Shown here: positions 2,473 to 22,607 of the stretch, in pieces
Layout: each line of letters begins with the position of its first letter
Numbering within the stretch: position 1 is the stretch's first letter
The notes under the pieces: generated by a model
Databases searched by the model: none
The model's input: only the letters and a program-made list of their open reading frames with translations
Told to the model about the DNA's origin: nothing
Origin: Flavobacteriales bacterium
GTDB taxonomy: Bacteria; Bacteroidota; Bacteroidia; UBA10329
NCBI GenBank assembly: GCA_016124845.1
Contig: WGMW01000008.1
Coordinates: forward strand, 62,001-126,000
DNA: 64,000 nt
Reading direction: 5' to 3'
Program-made: the position numbers and the translations under genes

Positions 2473-3339
2473 ATGACATCCGCCAAACTTAAAAACAACA
2501 AACACTTTGACAAGCTGAGTACAAAAGGGGTTGTCAAGATTCCATTTCTTACGGAAAACGAATTGCAACAGCTTACTGAGTTGTACAATCAAACGCATGG
2601 TAAAGCTGCCCCTCCTACGCTTTACGATGGTATTCACATGACCATTTGGCATCACGACACCAAGTATAAACTTGATGTCAACAAAGGCATTCGTGAAATT
2701 ATTGAAGCAGCATGTGAAAGGACCTTTGAAAACTATCGGGCGGTTTCGCAACAATTCATAGTAAAAATGAACGGAAGCGAGACAACATTCCCCGTACATC
2801 AGGACTGGAGCATTGTGGATGAGGGTCGATACCGTTCATTCAATCTATGGATTCCCTTGAATGATGTGGATGAGACAAATGGGGCAATGTGGATCATTGA
2901 AGGGTCGCATAACATTGAAAGAAAAATCAGAGGGGCGGGCTACCTCTTTCCCAACTATATTCAAATACTTGACCAACTAAAACCCTATATGACGACCTAT
3001 AGTATGACAGCGGGGGAAGGTCTACTGTTTTATCACAACACAATTCATGGCTCTCCGTTCAACGCAGCTGTTACACCACGGATTGTTGCACAAGTTGCCA
3101 TCATTCCGAAGGAAGCACCGATGAATATCTACTTTCAAAAAGGCCCTGGTCACCAATTGGAGGTGCATCAACCAGCGGATGATTTCACTTTTTATTATCA
3201 AAAGATCAGGGAAGAATCAGAATCTCGTCCTCCAACGGATCATCCGGTCGAGATACGTCAGGGAATTGAAGTTAAACCAGTATTGCTCGAAGAGGTGCTG
3301 AATGCGATCGGTGAAACGGTTAAGCATAACGATAGTTAG
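2473..3339 (+). CDS. Phytanoyl-CoA dioxygenase family (PhyH) Fe(II)/2-oxoglutarate oxygenase, PhyH1
   Basis: This 288-residue protein has one double-stranded beta-helix PhyH domain. The iron triad is visible as H109-Q-D111 in the segment PVHQDWSIVDE and distal H192 in the segment around NTIHGSP, and R203 is the expected 2-oxoglutarate anchor. PhyH-family enzymes hydroxylate aliphatic or sugar C-H bonds using oxygen and 2-oxoglutarate. The N-terminal DKLSTKGVVKIPFL segment matches the start of the other array members. It lies 252 bases after the GT2 gene and begins the plus-strand run of five PhyH genes. Unlike PhyH3-5 it has no basic amphipathic C-terminal tail. Substrate is unknown; the locus suggests a lipid-linked glycan or acyl chain. 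Confidence 0.92.
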   Translation: MTSAKLKNNKHFDKLSTKGVVKIPFLTENELQQLTELYNQTHGKAAPPTLYDGIHMTIWHHDTKYKLDVNKGIREIIEAACERTFENYRAVSQQFIVKMNGSETTFPVHQDWSIVDEGRYRSFNLWIPLNDVDETNGAMWIIEGSHNIERKIRGAGYLFPNYIQILDQLKPYMTTYSMTAGEGLLFYHNTIHGSPFNAAVTPRIVAQVAIIPKEAPMNIYFQKGPGHQLEVHQPADDFTFYYQKIREESESRPPTDHPVEIRQGIEVKPVLLEEVLNAIGETVKHNDS

Positions 3340-3634
3340 TTACTGACGCATCATTGGCCACCACATACTGTCATAACGTGTTTCGCGCTGCTGTCTTCAA
3401 CAGAATCAATGGTGGTTTGATTGCAAGGTGAGTTTGAAGTCGATCGGCAAATAAATACGTTATCCATTTCCAGATTTCAGAAAACCTGCTCATTAAATCT
3501 GCCTTTCGCAAATTGCCCGGTTTCTCATCAGTTGCGAGATTCGACAAATCCACGGTCCTTCATGTCAAAAGTCAGGGTTCAGGTAAATCCAAATAGCGAC
3601 ATTCGTCAGTTGGTGTACGGCATCGGAGAAAGAA
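3340..3634. other. Intergenic gap inside the PhyH1-5 run
   Basis: This stretch of about 295 bases separates PhyH1 and PhyH2 and is the only large gap between members of the plus-strand array. I see no convincing gene, no tRNA and no clear TTTG/TAnnTTTG promoter. Short open frames on both strands show no recognisable protein features. A promoter for PhyH2-5 might lie here but I cannot point to one. Confidence 0.5.
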
Positions 3635-4486
3635 ATGAGAGAGATCATTATAGACAATAAGACGCAAAGAAATCTAAGAGACCTTGGCGTTGGGATTATT
3701 GACGGTCCATTACGATTTCCTACGACCGAACTTCGAGCAGCCTTCCAAAGGCTGCATCCAGAATTGAATGAAATGATGCGAAGCACATATTATGTCTCCA
3801 TGTTCGGTAATGGAAAGACGTACTACCGAACGGTACATAATACGTTCCATGCAATACTGAAACCCTACTTGGATCAAATATTTGAACATTACAAGGTACC
3901 TGTCATAGTTGCTCAGGTCAAAGGGGTCGGTTCTTCCTCCGCTGTTAACATTCATCAAGACCTTACCATTGTTGACGAGTCCAATTACCGCAGTTATGTT
4001 CTATGGATTCCATTGGAGGATTCATCAGATACTAACGGAACTCTCTCCTTCTTGGAAGGAAGTCATCGGGTATTCCGGAATTACCGGGTACATACGGCCC
4101 ACTACATGTTCGAAGAATCGGAACATTACATTATTGAACATGCAAGAAAATTTCTGGTCGAAGAGGGCGGTGCACTGCTGTTCGACCCTGCAACAATTCA
4201 CTTTTCGGGATTGAACACATCTGGTAAACCCAGACTATCATTGGGAATGGAAATTGTGGATAGTTCGGCTCCATTGGAGATACTTTATGACAGCCCAGAT
4301 GCTGACATTGGCAATATGGACATTTACCGTGTTCCAGAAAACTTTTGGTTGCAGTATGAGTGTTTTGAACGTGAACGCGAACTCCCACCCTCTTTCGGTG
4401 AGAAAATTGGAATGAAGACAGGTATCAGGGTGCATCCTTACAGCCATCGTGAGTTCTTAGAACTATACAGCCCCATTAAACCATGA
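3635..4486 (+). CDS. PhyH-family Fe(II)/2-oxoglutarate oxygenase, PhyH2
   Basis: This 283-residue single-domain PhyH enzyme has an iron triad of H107-Q-D109 (NIHQDLTIVDES) with distal H189 (ATIHFSG) and 2-oxoglutarate-binding R200. The N-terminal region is more divergent than in other array members: the usual G-Y/F-V-x-V-P-F-L opening strand is replaced by GVGIIDGPLRF. The C-terminus ends in LYSPIKP without the amphipathic tail seen in several paralogues. Its stop overlaps the start of PhyH3 (ATGA at 4483-4486), so the two are translationally coupled. Reaction class (2-oxoglutarate-dependent hydroxylation) follows from the family; the substrate is inferred only from the surface-glycan context. 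Confidence 0.92.
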   Translation: MREIIIDNKTQRNLRDLGVGIIDGPLRFPTTELRAAFQRLHPELNEMMRSTYYVSMFGNGKTYYRTVHNTFHAILKPYLDQIFEHYKVPVIVAQVKGVGSSSAVNIHQDLTIVDESNYRSYVLWIPLEDSSDTNGTLSFLEGSHRVFRNYRVHTAHYMFEESEHYIIEHARKFLVEEGGALLFDPATIHFSGLNTSGKPRLSLGMEIVDSSAPLEILYDSPDADIGNMDIYRVPENFWLQYECFERERELPPSFGEKIGMKTGIRVHPYSHREFLELYSPIKP

Positions 4487-5385
4487 ATACCCCGATAGCC
4501 ATATTGCAGGATGACCGCCTACAGACGCGCCTCAATGAGGATGGTTACATAGTTGTTGATTTATTGAACGAGGGAGAACTCTCACAACTTAGGGAACTCT
4601 TCCATTTCCAGAATAGTGGTAGAGATGATATTCCGCTCGACGTTCTTTATACATGCGAACACAACCCTGACCGAGGATACAGGGTGGAGATGAATAACCG
4701 CATAAAGGAAATAATCGACCCTACGTTAGCTCGTGTTTTCAAAGATGTCCGCAGTACGGTTTACACCTTTCAGATAAAAGGCATTGGGCCGAATTCGGAA
4801 CTCATGGTTCATCAGGATTGGAATTTTGCGCGGGCCGATGAAGGCTTCAGAACATATACCTTTTGGGTACCACTTGTCAATAGTACGGAGTCAAATGGCA
4901 CTCTTTCTGTCCTTCCTGGCTCACACATTAGATTTGACTGTATACGCGGTGCTGGAATAGTTACGCCAATCATGGGACATGAAAAGGAGATCTTACCCAA
5001 CCTTTTACCGCTAACAGTCCATGCTGGACAGCTGGTTCTATTTGACAGTGCTCTTGTACACGCCTCTGCCTCAAATCTTAGCAGAGACATCCGAGTGTCC
5101 GTCATGACCAATATTTTTGCTTCCAAAGCTGAAACGTATCTTTATTTCCCCAACAAGGAAAGGGGAAAAGTAGATGAATACCGGGTTCCCATCGACTTTT
5201 TCCTCCGTTACAGTAATTACCGAAATGAGTTTTACCAACCGCCTGTATTCGGAGTACTTGTCCGTACTACTGCAAATCCAATGAGCGAATTCTCAAGTAT
5301 TATAGCTGCCACAACATTCACCACACCCAACACCGGTTCCAAAGTGATCCGAGTGTTTAAAAAACTGATCAATGAAATTCTTTGA
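4483..5385 (+). CDS. PhyH-family Fe(II)/2-oxoglutarate oxygenase, PhyH3
   Basis: This 300-residue PhyH protein has triad H110-Q-D112 and distal H193 (LVHASAS), with R204 as likely 2-oxoglutarate anchor. The N-terminus carries the array-typical DDRLQTRLNEDGYIVVDLL opening. The last 15 residues form a basic amphipathic segment (KVIRVFKKLINEIL), separated from the domain by a Ser/Thr-rich linker, a pattern repeated in neighbouring enzymes. Translation is coupled to PhyH2 by an ATGA overlap and to PhyH4 by a 14-base overlap. An oddity is the insertion FARADEGF after the HQD motif where paralogues read IVDES. Substrate unknown. Confidence 0.92.
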   Translation: MNTPIAILQDDRLQTRLNEDGYIVVDLLNEGELSQLRELFHFQNSGRDDIPLDVLYTCEHNPDRGYRVEMNNRIKEIIDPTLARVFKDVRSTVYTFQIKGIGPNSELMVHQDWNFARADEGFRTYTFWVPLVNSTESNGTLSVLPGSHIRFDCIRGAGIVTPIMGHEKEILPNLLPLTVHAGQLVLFDSALVHASASNLSRDIRVSVMTNIFASKAETYLYFPNKERGKVDEYRVPIDFFLRYSNYRNEFYQPPVFGVLVRTTANPMSEFSSIIAATTFTTPNTGSKVIRVFKKLINEIL

Positions 5386-6415
5386 GTATTCGAATTACGA
5401 TTATGTCGGTTGGAACAGACCTGAGCATACAATCGTACGATCCAAGGAGCTGGGCAAGCAGATATTTGAGCAGGGCTATGCAGTTGTTGAGGATTTCATT
5501 GAGGCCGGCCAGCGAAAGGAATTGTTGAATTTTTTCTCAGAGAACCATTCTATCGAGGTTTTGAACGGAGGCTTTTTTGTAAGTATCTACTCAAAAAATC
5601 TCGAATACAGGAGCAAAGTACATCATTACCTGCTAGATCAGCTATCCGGTAAATTTGACCTTCTCTTGCACGGACACAAGTACACCTGTTTTAATTACGC
5701 AGCCAAATATCGAGGCGAAGCAGGTGAACTATTCGTTCATCAGGACATGGCCCAAGTAGATGAGTCCAAATACTCTCAAGTGGGAATTTGGATCCCATTG
5801 GTCGATGTAAATATTGAAAACGGCACATTGGGAATTCTTCCATACAGTCATTTTTCCATTCCCCCACACAGATCACTGTACCATCAGCTTCCATACAGCA
5901 AAATTTACGATAGGGTTCACAGCTATATGCAACCGCTTAACATCAAGGCGGGTGACCTTCTGCTTTTTGACATCAGACTTCTGCATAACTCATTCATAAA
6001 TCTAACAGATAATCCGCGAATCAGTATTGCAGCGAGTGCTGTGCCTGAAAAAGCCCCTTTTTGCATGGCGTACCGAGACGAAAGGCAACCTGAGAACAAG
6101 GAGTATGAATTGCTTGAACTGGAAGATGACTTCTATTTGACATTCAAGGATTTCAAAAGTGAGAAGATCGGTAAGCCGGGAAGAAGTACGGGGATTTTTG
6201 TAACCATAGATGAAGTTTTTGTGCTACCTGAAGAGTTCGATCTTTTCTGTAATTATCACAACTTAAAACCTACTGGGGCCGACCGTTATAAAAAAGGTAT
6301 GAACACCTATCCGATTCAGGAACCCGACCACAAAGAACCAATTCGGAAAAAGGATGACCCTGCTTCTGAAAAATTTGGCTTTTTTCAAAAATTGAAACAA
6401 TTAATCGTAAGATGA
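5372..6415 (+). CDS. PhyH-family Fe(II)/2-oxoglutarate oxygenase, PhyH4
   Basis: At 347 residues this is the longest single-domain member. Triad residues are H123-Q-D125 (FVHQDMAQVDES), distal H205 (LLHNSFI) and R216. It has a ~20-residue N-terminal extension before the usual opening, and a ~60-residue C-terminal extension that is charged and probably disordered, ending in the basic amphipathic segment FGFFQKLKQLIVR. The start lies inside the end of PhyH3 (14-base overlap) and the stop lies four bases before PhyH5, so it belongs to the same transcript. The enzyme class follows from the family; the role of the C-terminal helix as a membrane or partner anchor is inference. Confidence 0.92.
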   Translation: MKFFEYSNYDYVGWNRPEHTIVRSKELGKQIFEQGYAVVEDFIEAGQRKELLNFFSENHSIEVLNGGFFVSIYSKNLEYRSKVHHYLLDQLSGKFDLLLHGHKYTCFNYAAKYRGEAGELFVHQDMAQVDESKYSQVGIWIPLVDVNIENGTLGILPYSHFSIPPHRSLYHQLPYSKIYDRVHSYMQPLNIKAGDLLLFDIRLLHNSFINLTDNPRISIAASAVPEKAPFCMAYRDERQPENKEYELLELEDDFYLTFKDFKSEKIGKPGRSTGIFVTIDEVFVLPEEFDLFCNYHNLKPTGADRYKKGMNTYPIQEPDHKEPIRKKDDPASEKFGFFQKLKQLIVR

Positions 6416-6419
6416 TAGC

Positions 6420-7292
6420 ATGAAAGAAAGACCACTGATACATGCTCCAATAATGAAGGATCCTGAATTGGAGCGACAACTGAATATTGACGGGGTAGTG
6501 GTGATGCGCGATTTCCTGGACAAAAATGCGGTCAAGGAGCTTTTTGATTATAATACTGCCAATCAGCCCGAGTTTACACATAACTCCATCATCAATTCTG
6601 TTTGGCATTCTCACGATCAGGAATATAAGGCGAGAACAATAGAAAAAATAATTGATATCTACACCCCGTTCTGCGAAAAGTACTTTGACAACTATAATAT
6701 TTTCGGTGGTTCGTTTGTCATAAAACTGCCTAATGGTGGCGGGGTAAGCTGTCCTCATGTTGACTTTGGCATTGTGAATGAAGAGGTTTACAGATCGTTC
6801 AACCTATGGATTCCCCTTGTTCCGACAACCGATGATAACGGAGCTTTGAAAGTACTCAAGGGAAGTCACAGAATGAAGCAGTTGTTCCGAGGACCCAATA
6901 TTCCCGATCAGACGGTTGACATCAGAGATTGGCTTTGGCAGAATATGGAGACTTATGAATTGAACCCTGGTGATGCCATTCTTTATGACCATCGGGCCAT
7001 ACATGGTTCAAACCCGAACAACACAGAGATTCCTCGGGTGGCCACCTCCTGTGCCATGACCAATGCGGGGGCTGAAATGGTACTTTACTTTTGGGATGAG
7101 ACCAAACGGGCGGTTGTGGGTTATGTGACTGAACCGGAATATCTGCTGACACATAACCACGAACAGTTGCCAACAGATCTCGAGATCGTGGGGGAGTGGG
7201 GCTATAGCTTAGACCAAGTTACATTGAATGACCTGGGCATTATACCTGCACCTACCGGGTTATTCGATAGGTTGATGGCACTCATCAGGTGA
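6420..7292 (+). CDS. PhyH-family Fe(II)/2-oxoglutarate oxygenase, PhyH5
   Basis: This 290-residue PhyH enzyme has H113-V-D115 (CPHVDFGIVNEE), distal H195 (RAIHGSN) and R206. It opens with the motif MKDPELERQLNIDGVVVM, which matches the internal linker-plus-domain starts of the double-domain proteins PhyH8 and PhyH9, consistent with one ancestral unit. The C-terminus ends in TGLFDRLMALIR, another short basic amphipathic segment. It is the last gene of the plus-strand run and meets the minus-strand H-x-G dioxygenase gene tail to tail with a 28-base gap. Substrate unknown. Confidence 0.92.
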   Translation: MKERPLIHAPIMKDPELERQLNIDGVVVMRDFLDKNAVKELFDYNTANQPEFTHNSIINSVWHSHDQEYKARTIEKIIDIYTPFCEKYFDNYNIFGGSFVIKLPNGGGVSCPHVDFGIVNEEVYRSFNLWIPLVPTTDDNGALKVLKGSHRMKQLFRGPNIPDQTVDIRDWLWQNMETYELNPGDAILYDHRAIHGSNPNNTEIPRVATSCAMTNAGAEMVLYFWDETKRAVVGYVTEPEYLLTHNHEQLPTDLEIVGEWGYSLDQVTLNDLGIIPAPTGLFDRLMALIR

Positions 7293-7320
7293 GCCGCGTA
7301 AGTTAACTTGAAAGCAAACC

Positions 7321-8217
7321 CTAAGACCAGACCTGAACTTCCATATCATCATGGGTAAAGCCCATGAAACCACCAACAGTTATCCGTCCAGCGTGGCCTT
7401 TCACCTCATCCACCATGTGCCAGATTGGGCCACCGGCAAATGTCAGAAAATCTCCAGGCTCCAATCTGATGGTCATACGGTCAATGCCATACTCGGAACA
7501 GTCCACTACCTTGCCATTTTCGTCTGTAAACGTGTACATCTGTTCGAACTCCTTCTTATGTTGCCCCTCGGACCATTCCCTTGCAAACAGAATCAGGTCA
7601 CTTGACTCGGAGGGCTGAACCACATAAAAGTAGCTGAGTTGATCATAGGAGCCCACGTTATCGTCAATGAATTCATAGAACTTATTGTGCTGACCATGAA
7701 ACAGATTGCCGCAATGAACCTCCAATGCTCCCGTTAGTGGCTTGAGCAGACGAAGTCCATAAGGTATACAGGAGCCACCGAGTTCTTGCATTTCTGGACA
7801 GGAAACCCTGCGCCCTCCGGCCATATTGCTCAAGAGTTGGAATAGACGCTCTTCTATGTCGACACCACATTTCGATTCGAAACCGTCCCGTACTTTCTTG
7901 GTCTGCTCAAAATAGGTCTTGGGGTCTGGAATTTCATTTCCCAAACTAGAAAAGGGCTTTGGATAAACATAACCTTTAGAATGGTAGTGCACTTCCTTAA
8001 CACCGCTCACCATGCTCCTTGTAAAGCTATCTATCTTGGAAACCTCATCAGTAGTGAGAGCTCCCTTCACAATAATACCATCGATTTCCCTTTCCTGTAC
8101 CTGTTTCAACCCATTAGGGTAATCAGCAACACCATTCAATGTGATGGTTCGGAAATCGTATAGGTCAGGGACTTCACGCCCCTTAATCTTAAACATTCGC
8201 CTCATAAATCCGTTCAT
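7321..8217 (-). CDS. Prolyl-hydroxylase-like Fe(II)/2-oxoglutarate enzyme with H-x-G motif (possible halogenase)
   Basis: This 298-residue protein does not belong to the PhyH subfamily but shows the general 2-oxoglutarate-oxygenase layout: LRLLKPLTGALEVHCGN (residues 156-171) matches the usual L-x-x-Y-x-x-G-x-x-L-x-x-H-x-D-N strand, and PIWHMVDEV with GRITVGGF (residues 264-284) gives distal H267 and 2-oxoglutarate anchor R278. The proximal motif reads H168-C-G170, and I checked the codons (CAT TGC GGC, complement of 7708-7716). Replacement of the Asp ligand by Gly or Ala is the hallmark of Fe(II)/2-oxoglutarate halogenases (SyrB2, WelO5, BesD). It could instead be a hydroxylase using another ligand, or inactive. 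The N-terminus is basic and amphipathic (GFMRRMFKIKG). It lies 13 bases after wzt and is probably co-transcribed with it. Confidence 0.75.
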   Translation of the reverse strand: MNGFMRRMFKIKGREVPDLYDFRTITLNGVADYPNGLKQVQEREIDGIIVKGALTTDEVSKIDSFTRSMVSGVKEVHYHSKGYVYPKPFSSLGNEIPDPKTYFEQTKKVRDGFESKCGVDIEERLFQLLSNMAGGRRVSCPEMQELGGSCIPYGLRLLKPLTGALEVHCGNLFHGQHNKFYEFIDDNVGSYDQLSYFYVVQPSESSDLILFAREWSEGQHKKEFEQMYTFTDENGKVVDCSEYGIDRMTIRLEPGDFLTFAGGPIWHMVDEVKGHAGRITVGGFMGFTHDDMEVQVWS

Positions 8218-8230
8218 GCCTGAAATTAAA

Positions 8231-9451
8231 TTATTCTATTCGTATTCTATTCCAATCAAAGTTCTTTATGATCGGTGATGGTATGGTAGACCACCTTTCC
8301 TTCAACATCCATTCATCCAACACAACAGTAAATGCCAATATGGAATGATAAGTGCTAATTGGATGCCCGTCTAATCCACATATTACTGAAAGATAATACC
8401 TCCCCGTATTCAGGAAATTACCTGGAATGATTGTCGTCTCTTCGTATTTGCCCCTTGGCATTTCCGCCACGCGCATTTTCCTATCGAACAATGGAGAAGA
8501 GGCCATAAACATTACATCGTTCAGATCGAACAATTTCCAAATAAAAGTAAGCCTCCCTCTATCCAATAATTTTGTGTAGTTAATTTTTATAACTATCTCA
8601 TTACTATGAAGAAACTCAGTACTGGATGAACTACCGTTTTTTAGAAGTTGCAAATCATCGATTGAAAAATATTCATTGACCTGAGGAACCAACGGAGCAC
8701 TATTTTCAATCTTTTGGCCAGGCCTGACAACTATCCAACTATTGTCAATCAACTTTGGTTGATTGGGATAACTGGAAAGATATGAAAGAATCACATTTCG
8801 AATATTGAAACTGTCCATTTTCACTTCCTTGTCCAAATAGATAACCCGATCGCAGAAATTTTCAATATCATTGAGATTATGACTGACCAATACTACTGTT
8901 TTACTCCTGTTTCGGTACTCTGCCATACGGTCAAGTGACCTCCTTTTAAAGGATGCGTCCCCCACGCTAAGCACCTCATCAAGCAAAAGAATATCTGTTT
9001 CCAGCTGCATGTAGATAGAGAAGGCCAATCTCAGATACATGCCGCTACTGTAGTGTTTTACAGGTTTGCTCATGTGTTCACCCAGTTGGCTGAACTCCAT
9101 AATCTCTGAAACTCCTCGTTCTATTTCCTTCCTTGACTTGCCCATCAACTGTCCAGCGAAAAAGATATTCTCAAACCCTGTCAGGTCAGGATGAAGCCCC
9201 ATGCCAATTTCCAAAATAGAAGAAACGCTTCCATTCAGAATCACACTTCCCGAATCGGGTCTTAAAACTCCCGAAAGTATTTTGAAAAGGGTGCTTTTTC
9301 CAGCACCATTAGGTCCTATTATCCCAACATTCTCACCTTTCCTGATCGTAAAACTGACCGATTTAAACACAGTCGTACCTCCGAAACACTTGGAAAGGTC
9401 AACCGCTTCAATGGCCACTGTAGCATCATCATTGTTCGTATTCGTATGCAT
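8231..9451 (-). CDS. wzt: ABC transporter ATP-binding protein, O-antigen/polysaccharide export type (Wzt-like)
   Basis: The N-terminal ~240 residues form an ABC ATPase with Walker A GPNGAGKST (46-54), signature YSSGM (134-138), Walker B ILLLDE (154-159) and switch H191. The SSGM signature, the DEVLSVGD segment and the C-terminal extension of ~150 residues (about 255-406) are typical of Wzt/TagH ATPases, in which the extension folds as a beta-sandwich that can recognise the modified end of the exported glycan. It would energise flipping of a lipid-linked polymer through the inner membrane with the Wzm permease. Unusually, its permease partner is about 9 kb away (18258-19070). The upstream region is divergent with the FISUMP lipoprotein gene. 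Confidence 0.93.
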   Translation of the reverse strand: MHTNTNNDDATVAIEAVDLSKCFGGTTVFKSVSFTIRKGENVGIIGPNGAGKSTLFKILSGVLRPDSGSVILNGSVSSILEIGMGLHPDLTGFENIFFAGQLMGKSRKEIERGVSEIMEFSQLGEHMSKPVKHYSSGMYLRLAFSIYMQLETDILLLDEVLSVGDASFKRRSLDRMAEYRNRSKTVVLVSHNLNDIENFCDRVIYLDKEVKMDSFNIRNVILSYLSSYPNQPKLIDNSWIVVRPGQKIENSAPLVPQVNEYFSIDDLQLLKNGSSSSTEFLHSNEIVIKINYTKLLDRGRLTFIWKLFDLNDVMFMASSPLFDRKMRVAEMPRGKYEETTIIPGNFLNTGRYYLSVICGLDGHPISTYHSILAFTVVLDEWMLKERWSTIPSPIIKNFDWNRIRIE

Positions 9452-9766
9452 GAATGCTTGAACCTGTCACCAGTTTGCTTATTCGGAAAAACCATCGCAA
9501 TATCGCCAAATATTGTAGCCAAACAAAAGCGTTGAACCTATCTCTATCGAACGCTAGTCATCGCAAAAGTCGTTGTATCGCAACTTAACAAATACCAAAG
9601 TGCTTTCGGGAACGTGATCATTGAACTCAACCTGATCAGCTGTCATCAAGTAACCGGGTGCATGCAGCGAAGTTGAAGATACACGAACCAAGGCAGGAAG
9701 AATTTATCGATTTGCCAAACTGGTCAAAGTGGCTACATTTGAGCAGATTAATCAACCTTGAACTTT
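9452..9766. other. Divergent intergenic region between wzt and FISUMP lipoprotein gene
   Basis: About 315 bases carry the leader of wzt on the minus strand and of the lipoprotein gene on the plus strand. A strong plus-strand promoter candidate is listed separately at 9711-9741. For the minus strand I find only weak TTTG and TATTTG-like words and cannot assign a promoter. Confidence 0.55.
9711..9741 (+). promoter_or_regulatory. Bacteroidota sigma-ABfr-type promoter for the FISUMP lipoprotein gene
   Basis: TTTG at 9711-9714 and TACATTTG at 9734-9741 are separated by exactly 19 bases, matching the Bacteroidota primary sigma factor consensus TTTG-N19/20-TAnnTTTG. A transcription start near 9748 would leave a leader of about 19 bases before the ATG at 9767. 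Confidence 0.7.
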
Positions 9767-10447
9767 ATGAAAACTCCTATCACCTCATGTCTGATTCTGG
9801 CGGTCATTTTTTCTTCTTGCAATGAACATTCTATGAACAATGGGTCAGATCAGTCGGCCGCAAATGTTGATTCCACGTTAAAGGATTCCCTCTTGGATTT
9901 TGAATTCTCTGCTGCACCAGACCTTGTTGATGAACGTGATGGTCGAACTTATAAGACAGTGAAAATCGGAAATCAAGTTTGGATGGCTGAAAATCTTCGA
10001 TATAATGTTGGAGAAGGAAGCTACTGCTATGACGATAAAGAAGAAAATTGCGAAGAATATGGTCGACTGTATACATGGGCTACTGCAATGGGTGGTAATG
10101 CTAAAGAAGGCAGTCAGGGCGTCTGTCCTCACGGCTGGCATATACCAAGCAACCAAGATTGGGATATTCTAATTGCAACGGTAGGTGGTGAAACAGCAGG
10201 TAATCTCTTTAAGACGGGTGGCAAATTAGGATTCAATGGTGATCTTACCGGGGGAAGAATGGCTCTGCCTGATGGGGATCACAAATATATCAAGGAGGGA
10301 ACGGACGTTTGCTTTTGGAGTTCTGAGTCTGACAGCTCCGGTGCGTTCGATAGAAACTTGAGTAATCGAGATGATATTATCTCAAAACGACATTATCCCA
10401 AAAACTATGGCTTCTGTGTTCGATGTATACAAGATAAGGAACTTTAG
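9767..10447 (+). CDS. FISUMP-domain lipoprotein
   Basis: I chose ATG 9767 over an upstream in-frame TTG at 9758 because it gives a compact lipoprotein signal: MKT start, hydrophobic core, lipobox IFSSC with Cys18. After a Ser/Asp-rich spacer comes a Fibrobacter-succinogenes major paralogous (FISUMP) domain from about residue 62 to the end: DGRTYKTVKIGNQVWMAENL, a YGRLYTW segment, CPHGWHIPSNQDW and the closing GFCVRC. Such domains are common in secreted or surface Bacteroidota proteins; function is generally unknown. The gene is inserted between two operons of the glycan locus but has its own promoter. Its end overlaps the start of the next lipoprotein gene by about 41 bases. Confidence 0.85.
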   Translation: MKTPITSCLILAVIFSSCNEHSMNNGSDQSAANVDSTLKDSLLDFEFSAAPDLVDERDGRTYKTVKIGNQVWMAENLRYNVGEGSYCYDDKEENCEEYGRLYTWATAMGGNAKEGSQGVCPHGWHIPSNQDWDILIATVGGETAGNLFKTGGKLGFNGDLTGGRMALPDGDHKYIKEGTDVCFWSSESDSSGAFDRNLSNRDDIISKRHYPKNYGFCVRCIQDKEL

Positions 10448-10826: not shown

Positions 10827-10896
10827 TGCTGGAATAAATTGTACCCAGCTTCTCGACCTTACTTACGTGAATGAGACAACGTAAGATGTTAGGAAA

Positions 10897-11808
10897 TTAT
10901 AAGTCCTCTTCCTTCTTTCCATGCACTTTCATGTACATGAGGTTCTGAAGAAAATACTTGTCCAGCCCATTACTCAGGTCAAATTCAGGTTTGATGCAGA
11001 ACACCTCGAAAAAATCAACTGGAAACACGTAATCATCCCAACTCTCAATCAAGGCTATTCCGGTCAGCTCCTGAAATTCGTTTGAAATCGTCAGGTTTTC
11101 AAATTCACCTAATGGAAGGTCGATGGTTTTGAATTTGGAAAGAATCCAGCCTTGCTTGCGTAAATGGGCAAGTACCTCATATAGATCAGCAATATTGTAA
11201 CGATACGACTCGTTGATCTTCTTGATCTCGCGCTCGATCTTCGCAGCATGTTCGGGCAACAACGGCTCTCTTCTGAACAGATCCTTGATGTAAAGCAGAC
11301 CTCCATTTTTCAAAACCTTCCAAGCTGAATCGATCGCCTTGTGGTGATACGGAGAGTGACCGAATGATTCAAGAAAGTAAACCACATCGAAACCGTCAGC
11401 CCCGATCACGTTTTTCAGGTCGTGATAATCTCCATTGTAGACAAAAACCTTGTCCTCAACACCAGCATCCTTGATTCGCTTTTTGGCAGCGTCAAACTGT
11501 TCTTTACTGATGGTTACAGCGTGAACTTCCACGCCTGCGTTCTTTGCAAAGTAAATGGCTGGACCACAAACTCCACAACCCGCATCCACCACCTTCATCC
11601 CTTCCTTCAATCCCATAACCTCGATCTGATAATCGAGGAGTTTATCCACGTTATGTGTTCGGAAAGCCTGAATCACATCTCCGTACACCTGAAGGAATTT
11701 ATCGTTGTATGTGTTATAAAAATCACCCACATCCGTAGCAGAATGGGTAGGTCGGTGTCTTTCAACAGCCGTTGATTCCGTCTTCTTCTTGAATAAATTC
11801 TTAAGCAT
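10897..11808 (-). CDS. SAM-dependent class I methyltransferase
   Basis: This 303-residue protein has the Rossmann methyltransferase motif I KVVDAGCGVCGPAIYFA (residues 72-88), followed by motif II near VEVHAVTIS and a central FDVVYFLESFGHS. The pattern resembles small-molecule and lipid methyltransferases of the sterol/cyclopropane type. The N-terminus MLKNLFKKKTES is basic and amphipathic, matching the terminal segments of the neighbouring dioxygenases. It is the last gene of the operon that starts at wzm, four bases after PhyH6. Inference: it methylates the hydroxylated glycan or lipid before export; capping methylation recognised by the Wzt C-domain is known for some O-antigens, but this cannot be shown here. 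Confidence 0.87.
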   Translation of the reverse strand: MLKNLFKKKTESTAVERHRPTHSATDVGDFYNTYNDKFLQVYGDVIQAFRTHNVDKLLDYQIEVMGLKEGMKVVDAGCGVCGPAIYFAKNAGVEVHAVTISKEQFDAAKKRIKDAGVEDKVFVYNGDYHDLKNVIGADGFDVVYFLESFGHSPYHHKAIDSAWKVLKNGGLLYIKDLFRREPLLPEHAAKIEREIKKINESYRYNIADLYEVLAHLRKQGWILSKFKTIDLPLGEFENLTISNEFQELTGIALIESWDDYVFPVDFFEVFCIKPEFDLSNGLDKYFLQNLMYMKVHGKKEEDL

Positions 11809-11812
11809 GCAT

Positions 11813-12703
11813 TCAGTTTAACATCCGTCTGAACCAGTTAACTATCCCTTGTTTCTCCTTCGAAGCAAACTGCTCAGCAGGTCTTTCTTCAATACAGGCC
11901 AAGGTAAAAAACTCTTCATCGTTCAATTGTTGCGGTTTGAAGTCCAATGTTCGAACTTTCCTTAATGTTCCTGGCCCGACCTTGGCTTCGGGAGTATTAT
12001 AAAAATCGTTCTCACCAACATATTCTTCCACTACTCCATCATTATTCCAATAAAATCGCATTTCCGGGTCTTTGGAAATGAGGCTGTGCGTGGCAGCAAT
12101 TCTCACCTTATCCGTTGTGTTAGGTTTTGAAGCGTGCCCCAACGCATGGTCGAAAACAATGGCTTCGCCAGCTTTGAGGTGCACGGGTTTCATGTGTTTC
12201 CAGACCGTGTCGTAAATTTTTCCGAACACGCTATCAATGGAAATATGACGGTAGCCGCGAACATATTCATGGCTCTTCGGAAGCACGTACATGCACCCAT
12301 TTTCCTCAGAAACGTCATCCAGCGGAACCCAAATGGTGAACGAACGGTAGCGTGATTCATCCACAATGCTCCAATCCTGATGCGGCTGGAGCGGTTCAGT
12401 CTGATGTGGCGGTTTTGAAATGAACGTTCCGCCAAGCGTCATTCCATTTTCAATGTGCTCATTGATTGCCCGCTTGAAAATCTGCTGAATGGCATCGCTT
12501 ATCTGATGGATCTGGGCATCATTCTTAAAGTGGGCTGAAACATAAAGCCCCTCCACTTCATCTTGGGAATGATGTTCCCAGAAAAGTTCCTTTAGCTGAT
12601 CAATTTCCTTCATATTGAGAAAAGGCAAGGTGATGTAGCCTTCTTCAAAAAGCCGCTGATTGAGAACAGAATCTCTGAAAATCGGTTCGTGATCGATCAT
12701 CAA
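11813..12703 (-). CDS. PhyH-family Fe(II)/2-oxoglutarate oxygenase, PhyH6
   Basis: This 296-residue protein is a single PhyH domain with H108-Q-D110 (QPHQDWSIVDES), distal H190 (ALGHASKPN) and R201. It is a close paralogue of PhyH7: both share LPKSH then VRGYRH, KAGEA and FYWNNDG followed by an EYVGEN/QYESNV segment. The C-terminus ends in GIVNWFRRMLN, a basic amphipathic segment after a charged linker. Start and stop are tightly packed: ATGA overlap with PhyH7 at 12700-12703 and four bases to the methyltransferase. The enzyme class is firm; substrate unknown. Confidence 0.93.
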   Translation of the reverse strand: MMIDHEPIFRDSVLNQRLFEEGYITLPFLNMKEIDQLKELFWEHHSQDEVEGLYVSAHFKNDAQIHQISDAIQQIFKRAINEHIENGMTLGGTFISKPPHQTEPLQPHQDWSIVDESRYRSFTIWVPLDDVSEENGCMYVLPKSHEYVRGYRHISIDSVFGKIYDTVWKHMKPVHLKAGEAIVFDHALGHASKPNTTDKVRIAATHSLISKDPEMRFYWNNDGVVEEYVGENDFYNTPEAKVGPGTLRKVRTLDFKPQQLNDEEFFTLACIEERPAEQFASKEKQGIVNWFRRMLN

Positions 12704-13647
12704 TTGCCTGAAGTGATTCTGAAATGGATCTCGCGAAGGATGTTCATCGGAGTATAGGTTTGCCAGAATGAACGGCTGTCTATTTCCTGTTCAGGCTGAA
12801 CCAAAACCTCTTCCACAACTGGTTCAGATTTTGGCATTTCCTTTCCAATGAATCGATAGAATTCAGCCTCCTCCACTGTAGGAAAATCATATTCCAACTC
12901 AGCCACTTTTTTCAGACCATTCGGGCCTTCGAAAATGTTCTGCGTCATGAAGAATTCCACATTGCTTTCGTACTGCTCGATGGTTCCATCGTTGTTCCAA
13001 TAGAAGTACATCTGCGCTTCGGCTGGCATTACACCGCTGGCGCAGGCAATACGCTTTTCATCCGTTCTGTTGGCCTTTGAAGCGTGGAGCAATGAGTGGT
13101 CGTATATCAATGCTTCGCCCGCTTTCATGTAAAGGGGCTTCATGTTCTCCCAAACAAGGTCATGCACCTTTCGATAAGCACAATCGATGCTTGAGTGGCG
13201 ATAACCCCGAACCCAATCATGGCTTTTCGGTAGCACCTCAATTGCTCCATTTTCTTCGGTAAGATCAACCAACGGAATCCAAAGGTTGAATGAGCGGAAT
13301 TCGTTCTCATCCACAATGTTCCAATCCTGATGCGGTTGGAGTTTGCTGTCATCATCTTTCGACTTGGAAATGAACGAAGCACCAAGCAAATTGCAGTTAT
13401 TGAATACCTCATCGCAATGCGGTTGCAACACGTTCGAAATGGCCGCGCTCATCTTCTTTCTGAAATCCGAATCTTGGTGATGTGCTGTAGCATAAAAAGG
13501 AGCGTGCTGTTCGGGATGCGCTTCTTCAAAAACCTGTTTCAGCGAAAGAACCTCCTCATCACTCAGAAATGGAATGACCACATAACCCCGTTCGGCCAAC
13601 TGTTTGTCCAGTTGGGAATCCTTCAAATATTGGCGATTCTGTTTCAC
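12700..13647 (-). CDS. PhyH-family Fe(II)/2-oxoglutarate oxygenase with conserved C-terminal tail, PhyH7
   Basis: I prefer the GTG start at 13647, which overlaps the TAG stop of PhyH8 by one base and gives the array-typical opening RQYLKDSQLDKQLAERGYVVIPFL; an ATG at 13707 would add 20 residues read out of frame from the conserved tail of PhyH8. From the GTG the protein has 315 residues. The triad is H-Q-D in QPHQDWNIVDEN, distal His in SLLHASKAN and Arg in EKRIACA. After the domain comes an acidic, proline-containing linker and the tail RSFWQTYTPMNILREI, which recurs in PhyH8 and PhyH9. It is a close paralogue of PhyH6 and translationally coupled on both sides. Confidence 0.92.
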   Translation of the reverse strand: MKQNRQYLKDSQLDKQLAERGYVVIPFLSDEEVLSLKQVFEEAHPEQHAPFYATAHHQDSDFRKKMSAAISNVLQPHCDEVFNNCNLLGASFISKSKDDDSKLQPHQDWNIVDENEFRSFNLWIPLVDLTEENGAIEVLPKSHDWVRGYRHSSIDCAYRKVHDLVWENMKPLYMKAGEALIYDHSLLHASKANRTDEKRIACASGVMPAEAQMYFYWNNDGTIEQYESNVEFFMTQNIFEGPNGLKKVAELEYDFPTVEEAEFYRFIGKEMPKSEPVVEEVLVQPEQEIDSRSFWQTYTPMNILREIHFRITSGN

Positions 13648-15467
13648 TAATTGGTAAGTCTGCTTTTGATCTCGCTCAGAATATTGCCAGGTGTGTAGGT
13701 CTCCCAAAAAGTTCTCGTGTCAACTTCCTCATGAGCTTCTACTGGTACGGACTCCGTTTCCAGAATTTCCTCACCTGCAAACTTGGCCAGCAATCGTTCC
13801 ATTTCCTTTTTATCTGGCTGCGGAAGTTTGTATTCAATGGTCCTGACCTTCTTTCCGTGTTTTGGTGGAAGGAAAATATCGGTGCCAAAATCATCGAACA
13901 TGATCAGGAAATTCTCGTCCATTTCATAAACATCCAATTCAGGTCTGGCAGCCGCTCTATCGTAATAATAGAACATCATTGGAGCACCTTTTGTCTTGAT
14001 GCCCGAAGTAATGGCCTTTCTGATCTTGCCAGAACGGTTCGGTGGCGAGTAATGGATCAGACTCTGATTGAGAATAACAGCCTCGCCAGCCTTCGCATTC
14101 ATCGGAACCAATTTCTCTCTTACGAGGTCATCATTCCCATTGAAAAAGAAATCCAATGTTGGTGCACGATGAACCGGAAAGTTAGAATACTGTGAACCAG
14201 GCAGTACCATCAGCGTACCATTGTTCTCATCCGTATCGCACAGCGGAACCCAACAGTTCAGCGCAACATACTTTTCCTCATCCACAATGGTCCAATCCTG
14301 ATGAAGAACAAGGTCTGAATTCTCAGATGGCATCTTGAACAGGAACGAACCACCGAAAGGTGTGTAATCCTTAAAGATCCGCTCGTAGCTATCGTGAAAA
14401 ACACGTTTGAAATAATCGGAGGCTTTCTGCTTGTATTCTATATCTGGCGAGTAGCTGCCAGAAATAAAACCCTCATTTGGAAGTTCGGGATGAAGTTCAT
14501 CGAACAACTCATCCAACTCTTTGATCTGCGCTTCATTCAGGAATGGAACTTTCACAAAGCCGTTCTCATCAAATTGCTCCTGTAGTTCAGGGTCTTTGAA
14601 AATCTCTGGAACCTTTCGCGGTTTGCCGTAAGCTTTCTCCAGGTCTTCTACCGTAAGTCGCTTAAAATGGTAATCGAATTTGCCGAGGCTCTTCCCGATC
14701 TTCGGACGGTCGTAAATGTTGTCTCCAAACTGCTCGAAATCGGTCATGAAGGATTCGTCCTGTTCAAACAGTTCGATTTTCTCCGAATCTTCTTCCTTGT
14801 TGTAGTAAGCCGTTCTGAACCGTGCATCCTTGTGAGTGAAATAGATGTTGGTCACCACGCGTCTCTCATCAGAAAAATTGGGTGGCGAATAATGAATAAT
14901 ACTCTGATCGAAGATGACCGCTTCGCCCGCTTTGAGGTAAAGTGGCGTCATGAAATCAACGATCTCCTTCGTTACACCCTGATAAATATTCGGCACCGTT
15001 GCTCCACGATAGGTCGGATACATCCGATGGCTTTTTGGCAGCGCGTAAATGGCTCCGTTCGTATCGGTAAGATCCACCAACGGACACCAGATATTTATAC
15101 CCGTGAACTCCGTTTCATCCACCAATGTCATGTCCTGATGCACACACATTTCGCTATCAGGACCTGGATATTTTACAATGAAACTGCCGCAGACCACCTT
15201 CTGATCCTGAAGCACATTGGAAATGGTTCTGTTGCCTATTCTGCGTATTTCCTCATCGGCTTTCTGACGGTAATTCTTGTCTTGCGAGAACGTGCTTGGG
15301 TAGAATCCTTTCTCATCTACTGGATGCAGATCATCGTACAATTTGTTCAGCTCCGCAATCTCTTCTGGTGTGTAGAACTGAACCGTAACATAACCTCTTT
15401 CCTCAAAGGTTTTCTGCATTTCAGGGTCTTTGAAAACCCGCTTCATCTTGTCTGGAAAACTGAACAT
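13647..15467 (-). CDS. Double-domain PhyH oxygenase with conserved C-terminal tail, PhyH8
   Basis: This 606-residue protein is a head-to-tail fusion of two PhyH domains, about twice the usual family length. Domain 1 (about 10-265) has H110-Q-D112, H192 and R203; domain 2 (about 288-545) has H389-Q-D391, H472 and R483, so both look competent for iron and 2-oxoglutarate binding. The linker GKPRKVPEIFKDPELQEQF leads straight into a second array-type opening (NGFVKVPFL). An acidic linker then leads to the C-terminal tail RTFWETYTPGNILSEI. The stop of PhyH9 lies two bases before its ATG. Architecture is the same as PhyH9. Two active sites on one chain suggest two hydroxylations of one substrate or of adjacent repeat units (inference). 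Confidence 0.93.
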   Translation of the reverse strand: MFSFPDKMKRVFKDPEMQKTFEERGYVTVQFYTPEEIAELNKLYDDLHPVDEKGFYPSTFSQDKNYRQKADEEIRRIGNRTISNVLQDQKVVCGSFIVKYPGPDSEMCVHQDMTLVDETEFTGINIWCPLVDLTDTNGAIYALPKSHRMYPTYRGATVPNIYQGVTKEIVDFMTPLYLKAGEAVIFDQSIIHYSPPNFSDERRVVTNIYFTHKDARFRTAYYNKEEDSEKIELFEQDESFMTDFEQFGDNIYDRPKIGKSLGKFDYHFKRLTVEDLEKAYGKPRKVPEIFKDPELQEQFDENGFVKVPFLNEAQIKELDELFDELHPELPNEGFISGSYSPDIEYKQKASDYFKRVFHDSYERIFKDYTPFGGSFLFKMPSENSDLVLHQDWTIVDEEKYVALNCWVPLCDTDENNGTLMVLPGSQYSNFPVHRAPTLDFFFNGNDDLVREKLVPMNAKAGEAVILNQSLIHYSPPNRSGKIRKAITSGIKTKGAPMMFYYYDRAAARPELDVYEMDENFLIMFDDFGTDIFLPPKHGKKVRTIEYKLPQPDKKEMERLLAKFAGEEILETESVPVEAHEEVDTRTFWETYTPGNILSEIKSRLTN

Positions 15468-15469
15468 GG

Positions 15470-17350
15470 CTATGCTTTTCCCGTCAATCTGAATTTCACT
15501 TCTCGAATGATGTTCATGGGAGTGTACATCTCCCAGAACGTTCGACCATCTCCGTTTGAAATCGGCTCTGGTTGGCTTTCAACCACAGGCTCCGGTTCCG
15601 GCTGCTTTTCTTCCTGTTGTGGTTGCTGAACAAACAGCTTGGTCATAGTTTCTACCAACGGAGCATTGAACTTATTTCCCGCACTTTCCATCAGTTCCCG
15701 CATTTCTGCTTCGGAGAGGTTTTCCCACTCGTACTTCATCTCGCCAAGCAGTTCGTAACCCTCAATGTTCTTGCCTGCATCATACATTTTCGAAAGACCG
15801 AGATTATCGTACTTGAGGAAAAACCCAGGATCGATCTTGTATTTGAGAAGCGTATCCTCTGTACCCGGTTTCAGATAATAATGTCGGATTTCTGCTTCCG
15901 CTTGCGTGAAACCAAGACCAACCGCCAAGCGTGCCGAATCGGTCGTATTCGGAGGTGAAGCATGGAACGTTCGGTTATCGAAGATCAGCGCCTCTCCAGC
16001 CTTCATTTCCAGCAATTCCAAGTACGGGAAAATGGTGTACATGTGGCGTTTTAGCGGTGTCTCCACCTGTGGCGATGGCGAAGGGCGCACGTTCGTAAAA
16101 AAACGGTTGCTCCCTTTGATCACACCGATACAGCCGTTTTCCATATTCACATCCTGCAAAGGAATCCAACACGTAACCGAACAATGCTTTTTCTCATCTT
16201 CTACAAACGACCAATCTTGATGCGGTGGCACAACGCCTTGCGGATTCGGCTCTTTGATGACGAATGACGCTGTAAACACCTGCGCACCGGTCAGATTGCC
16301 CTCCACTTTTGGCATGGCGATCTCCTTGATGCGATTGACCATGTTCGTGACCAATTGCTTGTCCGCATTGTCCATTCCCACATGGAAACCGTAGCCTTTC
16401 TCATCCTTGAGGTTGAGTTCTTTGTGCAATGCGATGAGCTGATCGATCTGCTCCTGCTCCAATGCAGGAATCTTCACAAATCCATTCTTCTCAAAATGCT
16501 CCTGTAACTCTGGATCTTTGAAAAGTGGAACCATCTGCGATTTCGGTTTGCCGAGTTGTTCTTCTACTTCAGCCATGGTCATATCTTTTATTTGATAATC
16601 AAATTCTTCTGCGAACTCACCAATAAGTGGTTCATTTCTAATTTCAGGATACTTGATGAACATGTCATCAGGCATGTTGTACTTCTTCACTTTGCCATCT
16701 TCTGTACCGTAATACATGAACAGATCCACAGCTTTTGGCACTAACCCGAACGTAACGGCAACACGCGGATCTTGCGAAAGATTGGCTGGTGATGCATGCA
16801 TCAGTGCATGATTGAATAGAATCGCTTCTCCGGCTTTTAGCGGAACATCGATCAAATATGCTCTGAGTTCTTTTCTGATTCCCTCAAAATCAACCGGCAA
16901 AGAAGGACTTCTCAGTTGGCTGTTCAGTTTATGACTTCCCGGAATGACCTGAAGACAACCGTTTTGAGTGGTCGTGTCTTGAAGCGGCATCCAGAATGTA
17001 TACGAACCGAATTTCGATTCATCCACAACCGTCCAATCCTGATGAATGGGCATTTCCGAATATTCACCAGGTTGCTTTACCAGAAAACTGGAACCAAGTG
17101 GTTTGAATTCAGAGAGTAATTGCTGCAAACTTGAATCGAGAACCTCGCCAACAGAATCACTCAGTTCTTTTTTGAAGTCGGTATCTGAGAGAAACGAAGA
17201 CGACCAGAAAGGGCTGCTTTCATCCGCAGGAACCCGTTGAAACAGCTTCTGCAATTGTCCTATTTGCTCCGAGGAACATAGAGAAACAACCACATACCCA
17301 TCCCTTTCGAGACGCGCAGCCAGGTCGCTATCCTTCAAAAAGTCGATCAT
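15470..17350 (-). CDS. Double-domain PhyH oxygenase with conserved C-terminal tail, PhyH9
   Basis: This 626-residue fusion has two complete PhyH domains. Domain 1 carries H103-Q-D105, H185 and R196; domain 2 carries H377-Q-D379, H463 and R474. The interdomain linker (GKPKSQMVPLFKDPELQEHF) is clearly homologous to that of PhyH8, so the fusion arose once and was duplicated, or was exchanged. Domain 2 shares CWIPLQD and a KK-rich segment after HQDW with the PhyH10 domain. The C-terminal linker (565-602) is rich in Gln, Glu and Pro and ends in the tail RTFWEMYTPMNIIREV. The gene overlaps PhyH10 by an ATGA and precedes PhyH8 by two bases. Confidence 0.93.
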   Translation of the reverse strand: MIDFLKDSDLAARLERDGYVVVSLCSSEQIGQLQKLFQRVPADESSPFWSSSFLSDTDFKKELSDSVGEVLDSSLQQLLSEFKPLGSSFLVKQPGEYSEMPIHQDWTVVDESKFGSYTFWMPLQDTTTQNGCLQVIPGSHKLNSQLRSPSLPVDFEGIRKELRAYLIDVPLKAGEAILFNHALMHASPANLSQDPRVAVTFGLVPKAVDLFMYYGTEDGKVKKYNMPDDMFIKYPEIRNEPLIGEFAEEFDYQIKDMTMAEVEEQLGKPKSQMVPLFKDPELQEHFEKNGFVKIPALEQEQIDQLIALHKELNLKDEKGYGFHVGMDNADKQLVTNMVNRIKEIAMPKVEGNLTGAQVFTASFVIKEPNPQGVVPPHQDWSFVEDEKKHCSVTCWIPLQDVNMENGCIGVIKGSNRFFTNVRPSPSPQVETPLKRHMYTIFPYLELLEMKAGEALIFDNRTFHASPPNTTDSARLAVGLGFTQAEAEIRHYYLKPGTEDTLLKYKIDPGFFLKYDNLGLSKMYDAGKNIEGYELLGEMKYEWENLSEAEMRELMESAGNKFNAPLVETMTKLFVQQPQQEEKQPEPEPVVESQPEPISNGDGRTFWEMYTPMNIIREVKFRLTGKA

Positions 17351-18258
17351 GAAAAAACGGCTTTCATTCGTTGCATGAATGATGGTTTCTCATCATAGCG
17401 CGGTCCGTTCAACTTCTTCTTGAACTCTTCGTAGGTCAGGTCTTTCTGAACATATGGTACTTCTCCGATCTTCTTGAATTCCGTGGGCTGTTTCCATGGA
17501 TTGAACTCCATGAAGAAATCCTGCTCCACTTCAAGCACATTTACGGTCTTGTTGTCAACTGCTTGGTTCATGTGAAAATGAATGGCTGGCTCTTCTTCCG
17601 GAATCAAAATCAATTGTATGGCAATTCGTAGATCGTTGGTGGTGTTCGGATAGGAATAATGAACAATGCTGTCATCGAGAATAATAGCCTCGCCCGCTTT
17701 GATGTCGCATGTAACCAGGTCGTTTTTGATGATATCATCTTTGATTCCCTCCAACTCCCATGGCACCATTGGTCCACGATGCTGTCCGAAACGCTTGTGC
17801 GAACCGGGCACAACCTCCAATGCTCCGTTTCCTCTATGACTATCCACCAACGGACACCAAATGGAAACGGTACAACACTTTTTCTCATCGGCAAACGCCC
17901 AATTCTCATGCAACGGCACTTCGCCCGTTTGTTCTTCCTTGCGGATGTAATTGGCAATGATCGGCTTGTAATCGGCCAGCAGTTTCTCGTAGTGCGGACG
18001 GAAAACCTCGTCAATGATCTTCAGCACTTCGCGCTTGTGATCAGGATTTCGGTCAATGAATGTGAAATCGTACGTGATGGTATAATCCATATCCAACCCT
18101 GCATCCTTAGGTGAAACGTGACCTCCGCTGGTTTTCAAAACCTCAAAGAACTTATCCCACAGGTATTTCACCTCTTCCTTTTTCAAGAAAGGGACATGAA
18201 CGTATCCGTTCTTCTGGAATTCCTTTTCCAGATTTTCATCTCTTAGTACAGGTCTCAT
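17347..18258 (-). CDS. PhyH-family protein with altered iron motif H-E-N, PhyH10
   Basis: This 303-residue PhyH domain protein differs from its eleven sister domains at the iron site: the motif is H117-E-N119 (PLHENWAFADE) instead of H-x-D. I checked the codons (CAT GAG AAT on the minus strand near 17900-17910). Distal H200 (SIVHYSYPN) and R211 are kept. Asn could still be a weak ligand, or the protein may be a non-catalytic partner. The C-terminus ends in the basic amphipathic segment SFMQRMKAVFS. The gene is the first after wzm and overlaps it by one base (TAATG), and overlaps PhyH9 by ATGA. Confidence 0.9.
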   Translation of the reverse strand: MRPVLRDENLEKEFQKNGYVHVPFLKKEEVKYLWDKFFEVLKTSGGHVSPKDAGLDMDYTITYDFTFIDRNPDHKREVLKIIDEVFRPHYEKLLADYKPIIANYIRKEEQTGEVPLHENWAFADEKKCCTVSIWCPLVDSHRGNGALEVVPGSHKRFGQHRGPMVPWELEGIKDDIIKNDLVTCDIKAGEAIILDDSIVHYSYPNTTNDLRIAIQLILIPEEEPAIHFHMNQAVDNKTVNVLEVEQDFFMEFNPWKQPTEFKKIGEVPYVQKDLTYEEFKKKLNGPRYDEKPSFMQRMKAVFS

Positions 18259-22606: not shown

Positions 22607-22607
22607 T

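Follow-up and report, generated by a model that had tools for sequence, protein, structure and literature searches.

Why would one bacterium line up ten predicted iron- and 2-oxoglutarate (2OG)-dependent oxygenases of the PhyH type beside a polysaccharide exporter? The question is raised by a locus of a Flavobacteriales bacterium (GenBank assembly GCA_016124845.1), which we analysed on a 64,000-nucleotide stretch of contig WGMW01000008.1 (positions 62,001 to 126,000; hereafter the window). According to a first-pass annotation of the window, two operons of opposite orientation encode ten PhyH proteins (twelve domains in all), their genes being interleaved with those of a Wzm/Wzt-type ATP-binding cassette (ABC) transporter. 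A PF05721 scan and the gene map bear this out: ten open reading frames (ORFs), two of which encode two-domain proteins, match at 57-174 bits against a curated cut-off of 22. The domain alignment likewise agrees with the annotated active sites, with the distal His and the 2OG Arg present in all twelve domains and H-x-D in eleven, the exception being an H-E-N motif in PhyH10. The extent of the array, however, had been drawn too small, since a pair of WelO5-family genes and three upstream PhyH genes were overlooked; the array continues beyond the window start and holds 15 PhyH domains over about 33 kb in total. The locus is thus real, under-described and larger than first noted. With moderate confidence, we favour the view that its enzymes tailor a lipid-linked glycan in the cytosol before an O-antigen-type Wzm/Wzt system exports it to the cell surface, with a conserved core of PhyH domains that would act on a constant part of that glycan.

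A PhyH core recurs in conserved order across aquatic Bacteroidota

Within the window, the array (2473-18258) consists of two convergent gene groups. PhyH1-5 lie on the plus strand, and the minus-strand group runs Wzm, P10, P9, P8, P7, P6 and a methyltransferase (MT), followed, past two plus-strand ORFs (9758-10826), by Wzt and WelO5a. The five plus-strand genes and the minus-strand genes from Wzm to MT mostly follow one another closely, overlapping or separated by only a few bases. The source genome encodes 18 PF05721 domains. Among 59 relatives searched, the family is present in 29, most genomes have 0-5 domains and eight (the source genome included) have 7-18, so that background abundance or chance was rejected as an explanation for the array.

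Related loci (L numbers below) were gathered by a P10 profile scan and compared by gene maps and a tree of 429 PhyH domains; many of these loci end at contig ends. The scan returned 64 further loci, almost all metagenome-derived and nearly all from aquatic Bacteroidota, with record titles naming Chitinophagales, Flavobacteriales, Fluviicola, Crocinitomicaceae, Sphingobacteriales and unclassified Bacteroidota. The recurring gene order is Wzm, P10, P9a+P9b, P8a, P8b, P7, MT, Wzt. In 20 loci the domains run exactly 10-9a-9b-8a-8b-7, and most of the others depart from this in having 9b ahead of 10 or in lacking 9a. Each core domain forms its own clade: P10 with 65 members (support 0.988), P9b with 67 (0.943), P9a with 36 (0.999), P8a with 55 (0.967), P8b with 50 (0.993) and P7 with 56 (0.989), P8a and P8b being sister clades (0.942). 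Distinct clades conserved in order across genomes are what the first-pass annotation had named beforehand as support for its reading. The left operon is partly conserved, as u3-1-2-3-4-5 in L041, as u3-1-2-3 up to the contig end in L043 and as u3-1-(2+3 fused) in L037. Of the 68 P10 loci, 50 have Wzm no more than 9 kb from P10 and 38 have MT; movement of the PhyH genes independently of the transporter genes, which would speak against a joint system, is therefore mostly not seen, although in a minority of loci (for example L065, L068 and L072) the core has no transporter nearby. Array genes also occur in single records titled Lysobacterales (L101) and Verrucomicrobia (L069), through either lateral transfer or misbinning, and two genes are each split into two ORFs by a frameshift or an assembly error (P10 at L086:9992-10939 and P6 at L036:4202-4982).

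The ratio of nonsynonymous to synonymous substitution rates (dN/dS) was taken from close pairs, since the comparison of the window genome with G001 is mostly saturated at synonymous sites, and one pair with a dS of 0.01 (u3, L040/L042) was excluded. Pairwise values for the PhyH domains are mostly 0.03-0.13, with a few up to about 0.18, and are lowest for P10 (0.03-0.055). P10 is also the most conserved gene measured at the locus: over the same locus pairs its identity is 53-60%, followed by MT (52%), the protein encoded at 19146-20018 (52%) and P8a (50%), and compared with 43% for the family 2 glycosyltransferase (GT2), 35% for Wzm, 35% for GNAT and 34% for Wzt. Both iron-binding His residues are kept in 427 of the 429 aligned domains, D occupies the third motif position throughout except for the N of P10, and the 2OG Arg is absent from only three entries, each of which is gapped there. 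Because each core domain has its own clade and a low dN/dS, we consider the copies old, distinct and maintained, as their intact residues had already suggested in the first-pass annotation. A recent species-specific expansion under relaxed constraint was rejected, as the clades are separate across genomes and dN/dS is not near 1. Separate, maintained roles for the PhyH copies are well supported by these sequence comparisons, whereas the further proposal of the first-pass annotation, that they serve successive positions of one molecule, is a conjecture.

The most conserved member has an H-x-N site

The H-x-N motif is found in 64 of the 65 P10 clade members, a clade that also includes the upstream PhyH_u1, and H117, N119, H200 and R211 (window numbering) are invariant in 36 aligned members. 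P10 lacks the H-x-D/E triad, and its fold and sequence are what place it in the PhyH family. Enzymes of this kind are usually inactive once the carboxylate is removed, as in the D414A/G variants of prolyl hydroxylase (PMC2767507), but human AspH is active with only two His ligands (PMC13168262). Because its H-x-N site is invariant, P10 is presumably functional, whether catalytically or structurally: it could catalyse a reaction at an unusual 2-His/Asn iron site or support the other PhyH proteins structurally.

WelO5-family enzymes accompany the array

WelO5-type enzymes are carrier-independent halogenases of the cyanobacterial hapalindole/welwitindolinone pathway. The window protein WelO5a, which starts 13 bp downstream of Wzt, matches the WelO5 crystal sequences with an E value of about 8e-18 when searched alone and of 1e-50 when a family profile is used, and keeps H168-C-G170, H267, R278 and a Ser aligned with WelO5 S189. 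The upstream copy (L019:11188-12042; PF22814 E 1.3e-49) has H-C-E and hence lacks the H-x-G of the halogenases. In 17 full-length aligned relatives, including the window protein, the motif is H-C-G in 13, H-C-E in three and altered in one, and nine of the 17 genes are directly beside Wzt.

PF22814 scores above its cut-off in 10 of 395 genomes of a class-wide sample. In nine of these ten, the gene either shares an array with genes for PhyH proteins and an ABC exporter or lies on a PhyH-rich contig; the remaining match is remote (E 1e-10) and has neither. Co-occurrence with P10 in the same 395 genomes (10 with each, 5 shared; Fisher p 8e-7) ignores shared ancestry and is supportive only. The array proteins resemble WelO5-type halogenases in family score (PF22814 E 1e-49 to 1e-77) and in the equivalents of H-x-G, distal His, Arg and Ser189, but they are distant in sequence and sit in glycan-export arrays of Bacteroidota, and in some paralogs the motif is H-x-E or otherwise altered. 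An H-x-G motif is not in itself proof of halogenation: AspH, whose iron site is likewise of the two-His kind, is no halogenase (PMC13168262). On the basis of their conserved residues, halogenation by the H-x-G members is plausible.

Gene fusions link PhyH domains to the exporter

In the ABC-dependent pathway the glycan is completed in the cytosol on a lipid carrier and then exported, and in known O antigens the carbohydrate-binding domain of Wzt recognises the end of the chain by a methyl group or another modification added in the cytosol (PMC9445017). The window encodes the corresponding pair of ABC-2 permease (Wzm) and ATPase (Wzt). Against a cut-off of 30.4 bits, the C-terminal Wzt_C domain scores 20.6 bits in the window Wzt, 27.7 in the upstream Wzt2 (L019) and 33 in a PhyH-Wzt fusion (L122). 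Such fusions, which join a PhyH domain to ABC_tran and a C-terminal Wzt_C in a single ORF, occur in two genomes (L122:8175-10331 and L121:6559-8640). P7 and MT form one protein in L046 and L099 according to Pfam and in L091, L102, L106 and L108 by similarity, L108 being from the same genome as L046. Fusions between PhyH domains join P9a+P9b in 35 cases, P10+P9b in 11, P8a+P8b in 3 and P9b+P8a in 1; the window's two-domain PhyH8 mostly corresponds to two separate genes in relatives. This pattern suggests that neighbouring fused PhyH domains may work together.

The best solved relatives of MT include both MitM and a D-glucose O-methyltransferase, and the array adjoins sugar-nucleotide genes (CDP-glucose 4,6-dehydratase-like, C-methyltransferase and GNAT, with DegT in relatives; CDP, cytidine diphosphate). 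From gene order and fusions, coupling of the PhyH array to glycan export appears likely. ABC-dependent O-polysaccharide loci, such as that of Aquifex aeolicus (PMC9445017), share with the present locus Wzm, Wzt (although its C-terminal domain scores weakly in the window), a methyltransferase, glycosyltransferases and, in our model, cytosolic modification before export. Their chains, on the other hand, are known to be capped by methylation, by (methyl)phosphorylation or with a special sugar, for example 3-deoxy-D-manno-octulosonic acid (Kdo), and the locus described here adds at least five conserved 2OG oxygenases, often a WelO5-type enzyme, and PhyH domains that are sometimes fused to Wzt.

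What might the array modify?

PhyH enzymes require cytosolic iron and 2OG, and inspection by eye revealed no obvious signal peptides in the array PhyH proteins. In the model that we favour, P10, P9a, P9b, P8a, P8b and P7 (five to six core domains from old, separate lineages) would, together with MT, oxidise and methylate a constant part of the glycan in a fixed set of steps; this part would most likely be a non-reducing-end cap or another conserved segment that the exporter reads. A constant target such as a cap is preferred to a variable repeat unit because the core is more conserved than the exporter and most assembly genes. P7 and MT would act jointly, by hydroxylation followed by O-methylation or by methylation followed by oxidation. 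The accessory PhyH proteins (P1-P5 and the upstream ones) and the WelO5-type enzymes would be variable, strain-specific modules for extra oxygenation and, for the H-x-G ones, probably chlorination, after which the tailored glycan would leave through ABC export. We infer the glycan substrate, the cap, the individual reactions and the halogenation from gene content and conservation. The Wzt_C domain, the PhyH-Wzt fusions and the sugar-nucleotide and glycosyltransferase genes favour a glycan over a long acyl chain.

AlphaFold models of P10 and of a P8a ortholog (predicted local distance difference test scores of 92 and 91) have a double-stranded beta-helix with Z scores of about 17-18 to solved PhyH-type oxygenases. 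The nearest solved folds include the sugar-tailoring 2OG oxygenases SnoK, SnoN, EvdO2, AviO1, HygX and EvdMO1. SnoK and SnoN, the nogalamycin sugar carbocyclase and epimerase, rank first in the fold comparisons of P10 and P8a (Z 18.6 and 18.5), but they are single-copy antibiotic-tailoring enzymes with distant sequences. Since top matches with different substrates are tied, assignment of a substrate from the fold was rejected.

Several observations weigh against a glycan-tailoring line. Amino-acid, terpenoid and alkaloid oxygenases and human PHYHD1 tie as nearest folds within about 1-2 Z; the Wzt_C domain of the window's own Wzt scores below the cut-off; a minority of loci have the core, or P10 alone, but no Wzm nearby (L053, L065, L068, L072); and the KASIII and sulfotransferase genes next to the array could indicate a lipid product.

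The loci without Wzm, along with the cytosolic location of PhyH enzymes and the small-molecule substrates of some of them, would also suit a soluble nucleotide-sugar or monosaccharide building block made by successive oxidation, with the exporter a mere neighbour. The PhyH-Wzt and PhyH-MT fusions and the frequent adjacency of Wzm make this unlikely. Slightly less likely still is that KASIII, the sulfotransferase, PhyH and WelO5-type enzymes make a polyhydroxylated, perhaps chlorinated and sulfated long-chain lipid for ABC export. Both KASIII and a Sulfotransfer_3-family gene (22881-24113, beside KASIII) adjoin the array, the founding PhyH enzyme acts on an acyl-CoA, and algae have chlorosulfolipids. 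However, the sulfotransferase accompanies the array in only one other genome, of the same genus, and KASIII is present in just 14 of the 68 P10 loci, where its companions are GNAT and a glycosyltransferase, joined in relatives by a DegT aminotransferase, a combination expected for an acylated amino sugar. In addition, neither an acyl carrier protein nor an acyl-CoA ligase was noted within the array, and the PhyH-Wzt fusion contains Wzt_C.

We regard as improbable an orthosomycin-like secreted oligosaccharide metabolite, in which the PhyH enzymes would form orthoesters or acetal bridges. The orthosomycin oxygenases EvdO2, AviO1, HygX and EvdMO1 share with the array proteins the PhyH fold, the oxidative tailoring of oligosaccharides that is proposed here and fusion to methyltransferases, and C-methyl, deoxy-sugar and B12 radical S-adenosylmethionine (SAM) genes lie upstream. 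Yet their identity to the array proteins is about 14-23%, the domain order of EvdMO1 is the reverse, and close kinship fails in sequence searches, where the P8a profile finds EvdO2 at E 5e-7, behind MysH and SnoK. Unlike most antibiotic clusters, the core is old, strongly constrained and present in many lineages, and the exporter is of the O-antigen type; to our knowledge, orthosomycin clusters have no ABC polysaccharide exporter. Finally, that most PhyH copies are non-catalytic scaffold or binding proteins with few enzymes among them, as the missing carboxylate of P10 and the frequent, complex-like fusion of neighbouring domains might suggest, is very improbable in view of the near-universal active-site residues given above.

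Genes within and around the array

The genes of the locus are listed in Table 1. Pfam and NCBIfam scans gave no matches for the GTunk protein, and an NCBIfam scan gave none for the multi-spanning membrane protein at the window start. About 7-17 kb upstream of the window start are the three further PhyH genes, the second WelO5-family gene (H-C-E), the second Wzt, a UbiA-like gene and a gene for an LMF1-like (lipase maturation factor) protein (L019:12835-14487); a similar-looking large membrane protein is encoded at L019:231-2108, and relatives lie near arrays elsewhere. Between this set and the window are CDP-sugar, C-methyltransferase and KedN5-like B12 radical SAM genes, the last as two tandem copies (L020:7751-11906) adjoining the CDP-glucose 4,6-dehydratase-like gene. 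A Fib_succ_major-domain protein (9758-10447), encoded on the opposite strand, splits the two halves of the right operon, and FibSucc-like ORFs also occur in L029 and L069. A 1457-residue PKD-repeat protein with a CHU_C type IX secretion signal (24180-28553) adjoins the locus.

Table 1. Genes of the array and its flanks, in window coordinates.
Feature	Position	Strand	Evidence and remarks
Multi-spanning membrane protein (GT-C-like by sequence)	2-1522	+	Begins upstream of window; complete at L020:11970-13523
Likely GT2-type glycosyltransferase	1525-2220	+	Sequence reading; relatives in L051, L085
PhyH1 (left operon domain 1)	2473-3339	+	PF05721 E 2.8e-15; paralog of L019 PhyH_u2; ortholog in L037, L041, L043
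PhyH2	3635-4486	+	PF05721 E 3.3e-16; clade n=4, support 1.0
PhyH3	4483-5385	+	PF05721 E 2.5e-20; clade n=4, support 1.0; fused to PhyH2 in L037
PhyH4	5372-6415	+	PF05721 E 2.5e-18; ortholog in L041
PhyH5	6420-7292	+	PF05721 E 7.9e-16; ortholog in L041, similar gene in L036
WelO5a, WelO5-family Fe(II)/2OG enzyme, halogenase-type H-C-G site	7321-8217	-	PF22814 E 7.6e-49
Wzt, ABC-exporter ATPase with weak Wzt_C (cap-binding-type) domain	8231-9451	-	ABC_tran E 6.7e-21; Wzt_C E 4.5e-4, below cut-off
MT, core SAM methyltransferase, RebM/MitM/CMAS-like	10897-11808	-	Pfam; solved-structure relatives
PhyH6, duplicate inside P7 clade	11813-12703	-	PF05721 E 5.1e-24; tree
PhyH7 (core P7)	12700-13707	-	PF05721 E 1.2e-22; P7 clade
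PhyH8, two domains (core P8a + P8b)	13647-15467	-	PF05721 141 bits, 2 stretches; P8a and P8b clades
PhyH9, two domains (core P9a + P9b)	15470-17350	-	PF05721 174 bits, 2 stretches; P9a and P9b clades
PhyH10 (core P10), H-x-N replaces H-x-D	17347-18258	-	PF05721 E 6.9e-19
Wzm, ABC-2 permease, first gene of right operon	18258-19070	-	PF01061 E 1.8e-15
Conserved protein (GTunk), recurs beside Wzm	19146-20018	+	Present in 18/68 P10 loci
GNAT, PseH-like amino-sugar acyltransferase	19999-20634	-	PF13302 E 8e-9; TIGR03585 PseH E 5.8e-18, below equivalog cut-off
GT2, ArnC/dolichyl-P-sugar-synthase type	20634-21611	-	PF00535 E 1.1e-21; NF007986-like E 1e-46, below cut-off
KASIII (FabH-like) ketosynthase	21551-22642	-	PF08541 E 5e-23

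Implications

We know of no comparable locus that has been described, and a search of open-licence papers, which is weak evidence, found no account of Wzt-associated PhyH arrays, WelO5 enzymes from Bacteroidetes or such halogenated polysaccharide loci. In its boldest form, which we put forward only tentatively, the system would write a polyoxygenated and chlorinated cap or segment on a surface polysaccharide, using ordered 2OG oxygenases that include a catalytic H-x-N subfamily and glycan-acting WelO5-type halogenases, all coupled to an ABC exporter. Carbohydrate halogenation would then be a new substrate class for WelO5-type enzymes. The P10 clade offers a natural 2-His/Asn site under the strongest constraint of the locus, and hence a test case for 2OG enzymes that lack the carboxylate, and through the PhyH-Wzt fusions the coupling of oxidation to export could be tested directly. 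A row of diverse iron-dependent oxygenases beside a glycan exporter suggests a surface glycan modified beyond any known one; if this is true, widespread and mostly uncultured aquatic Bacteroidota would produce a surface glycan whose synthesis involves more oxidative steps than that of any glycan described so far.

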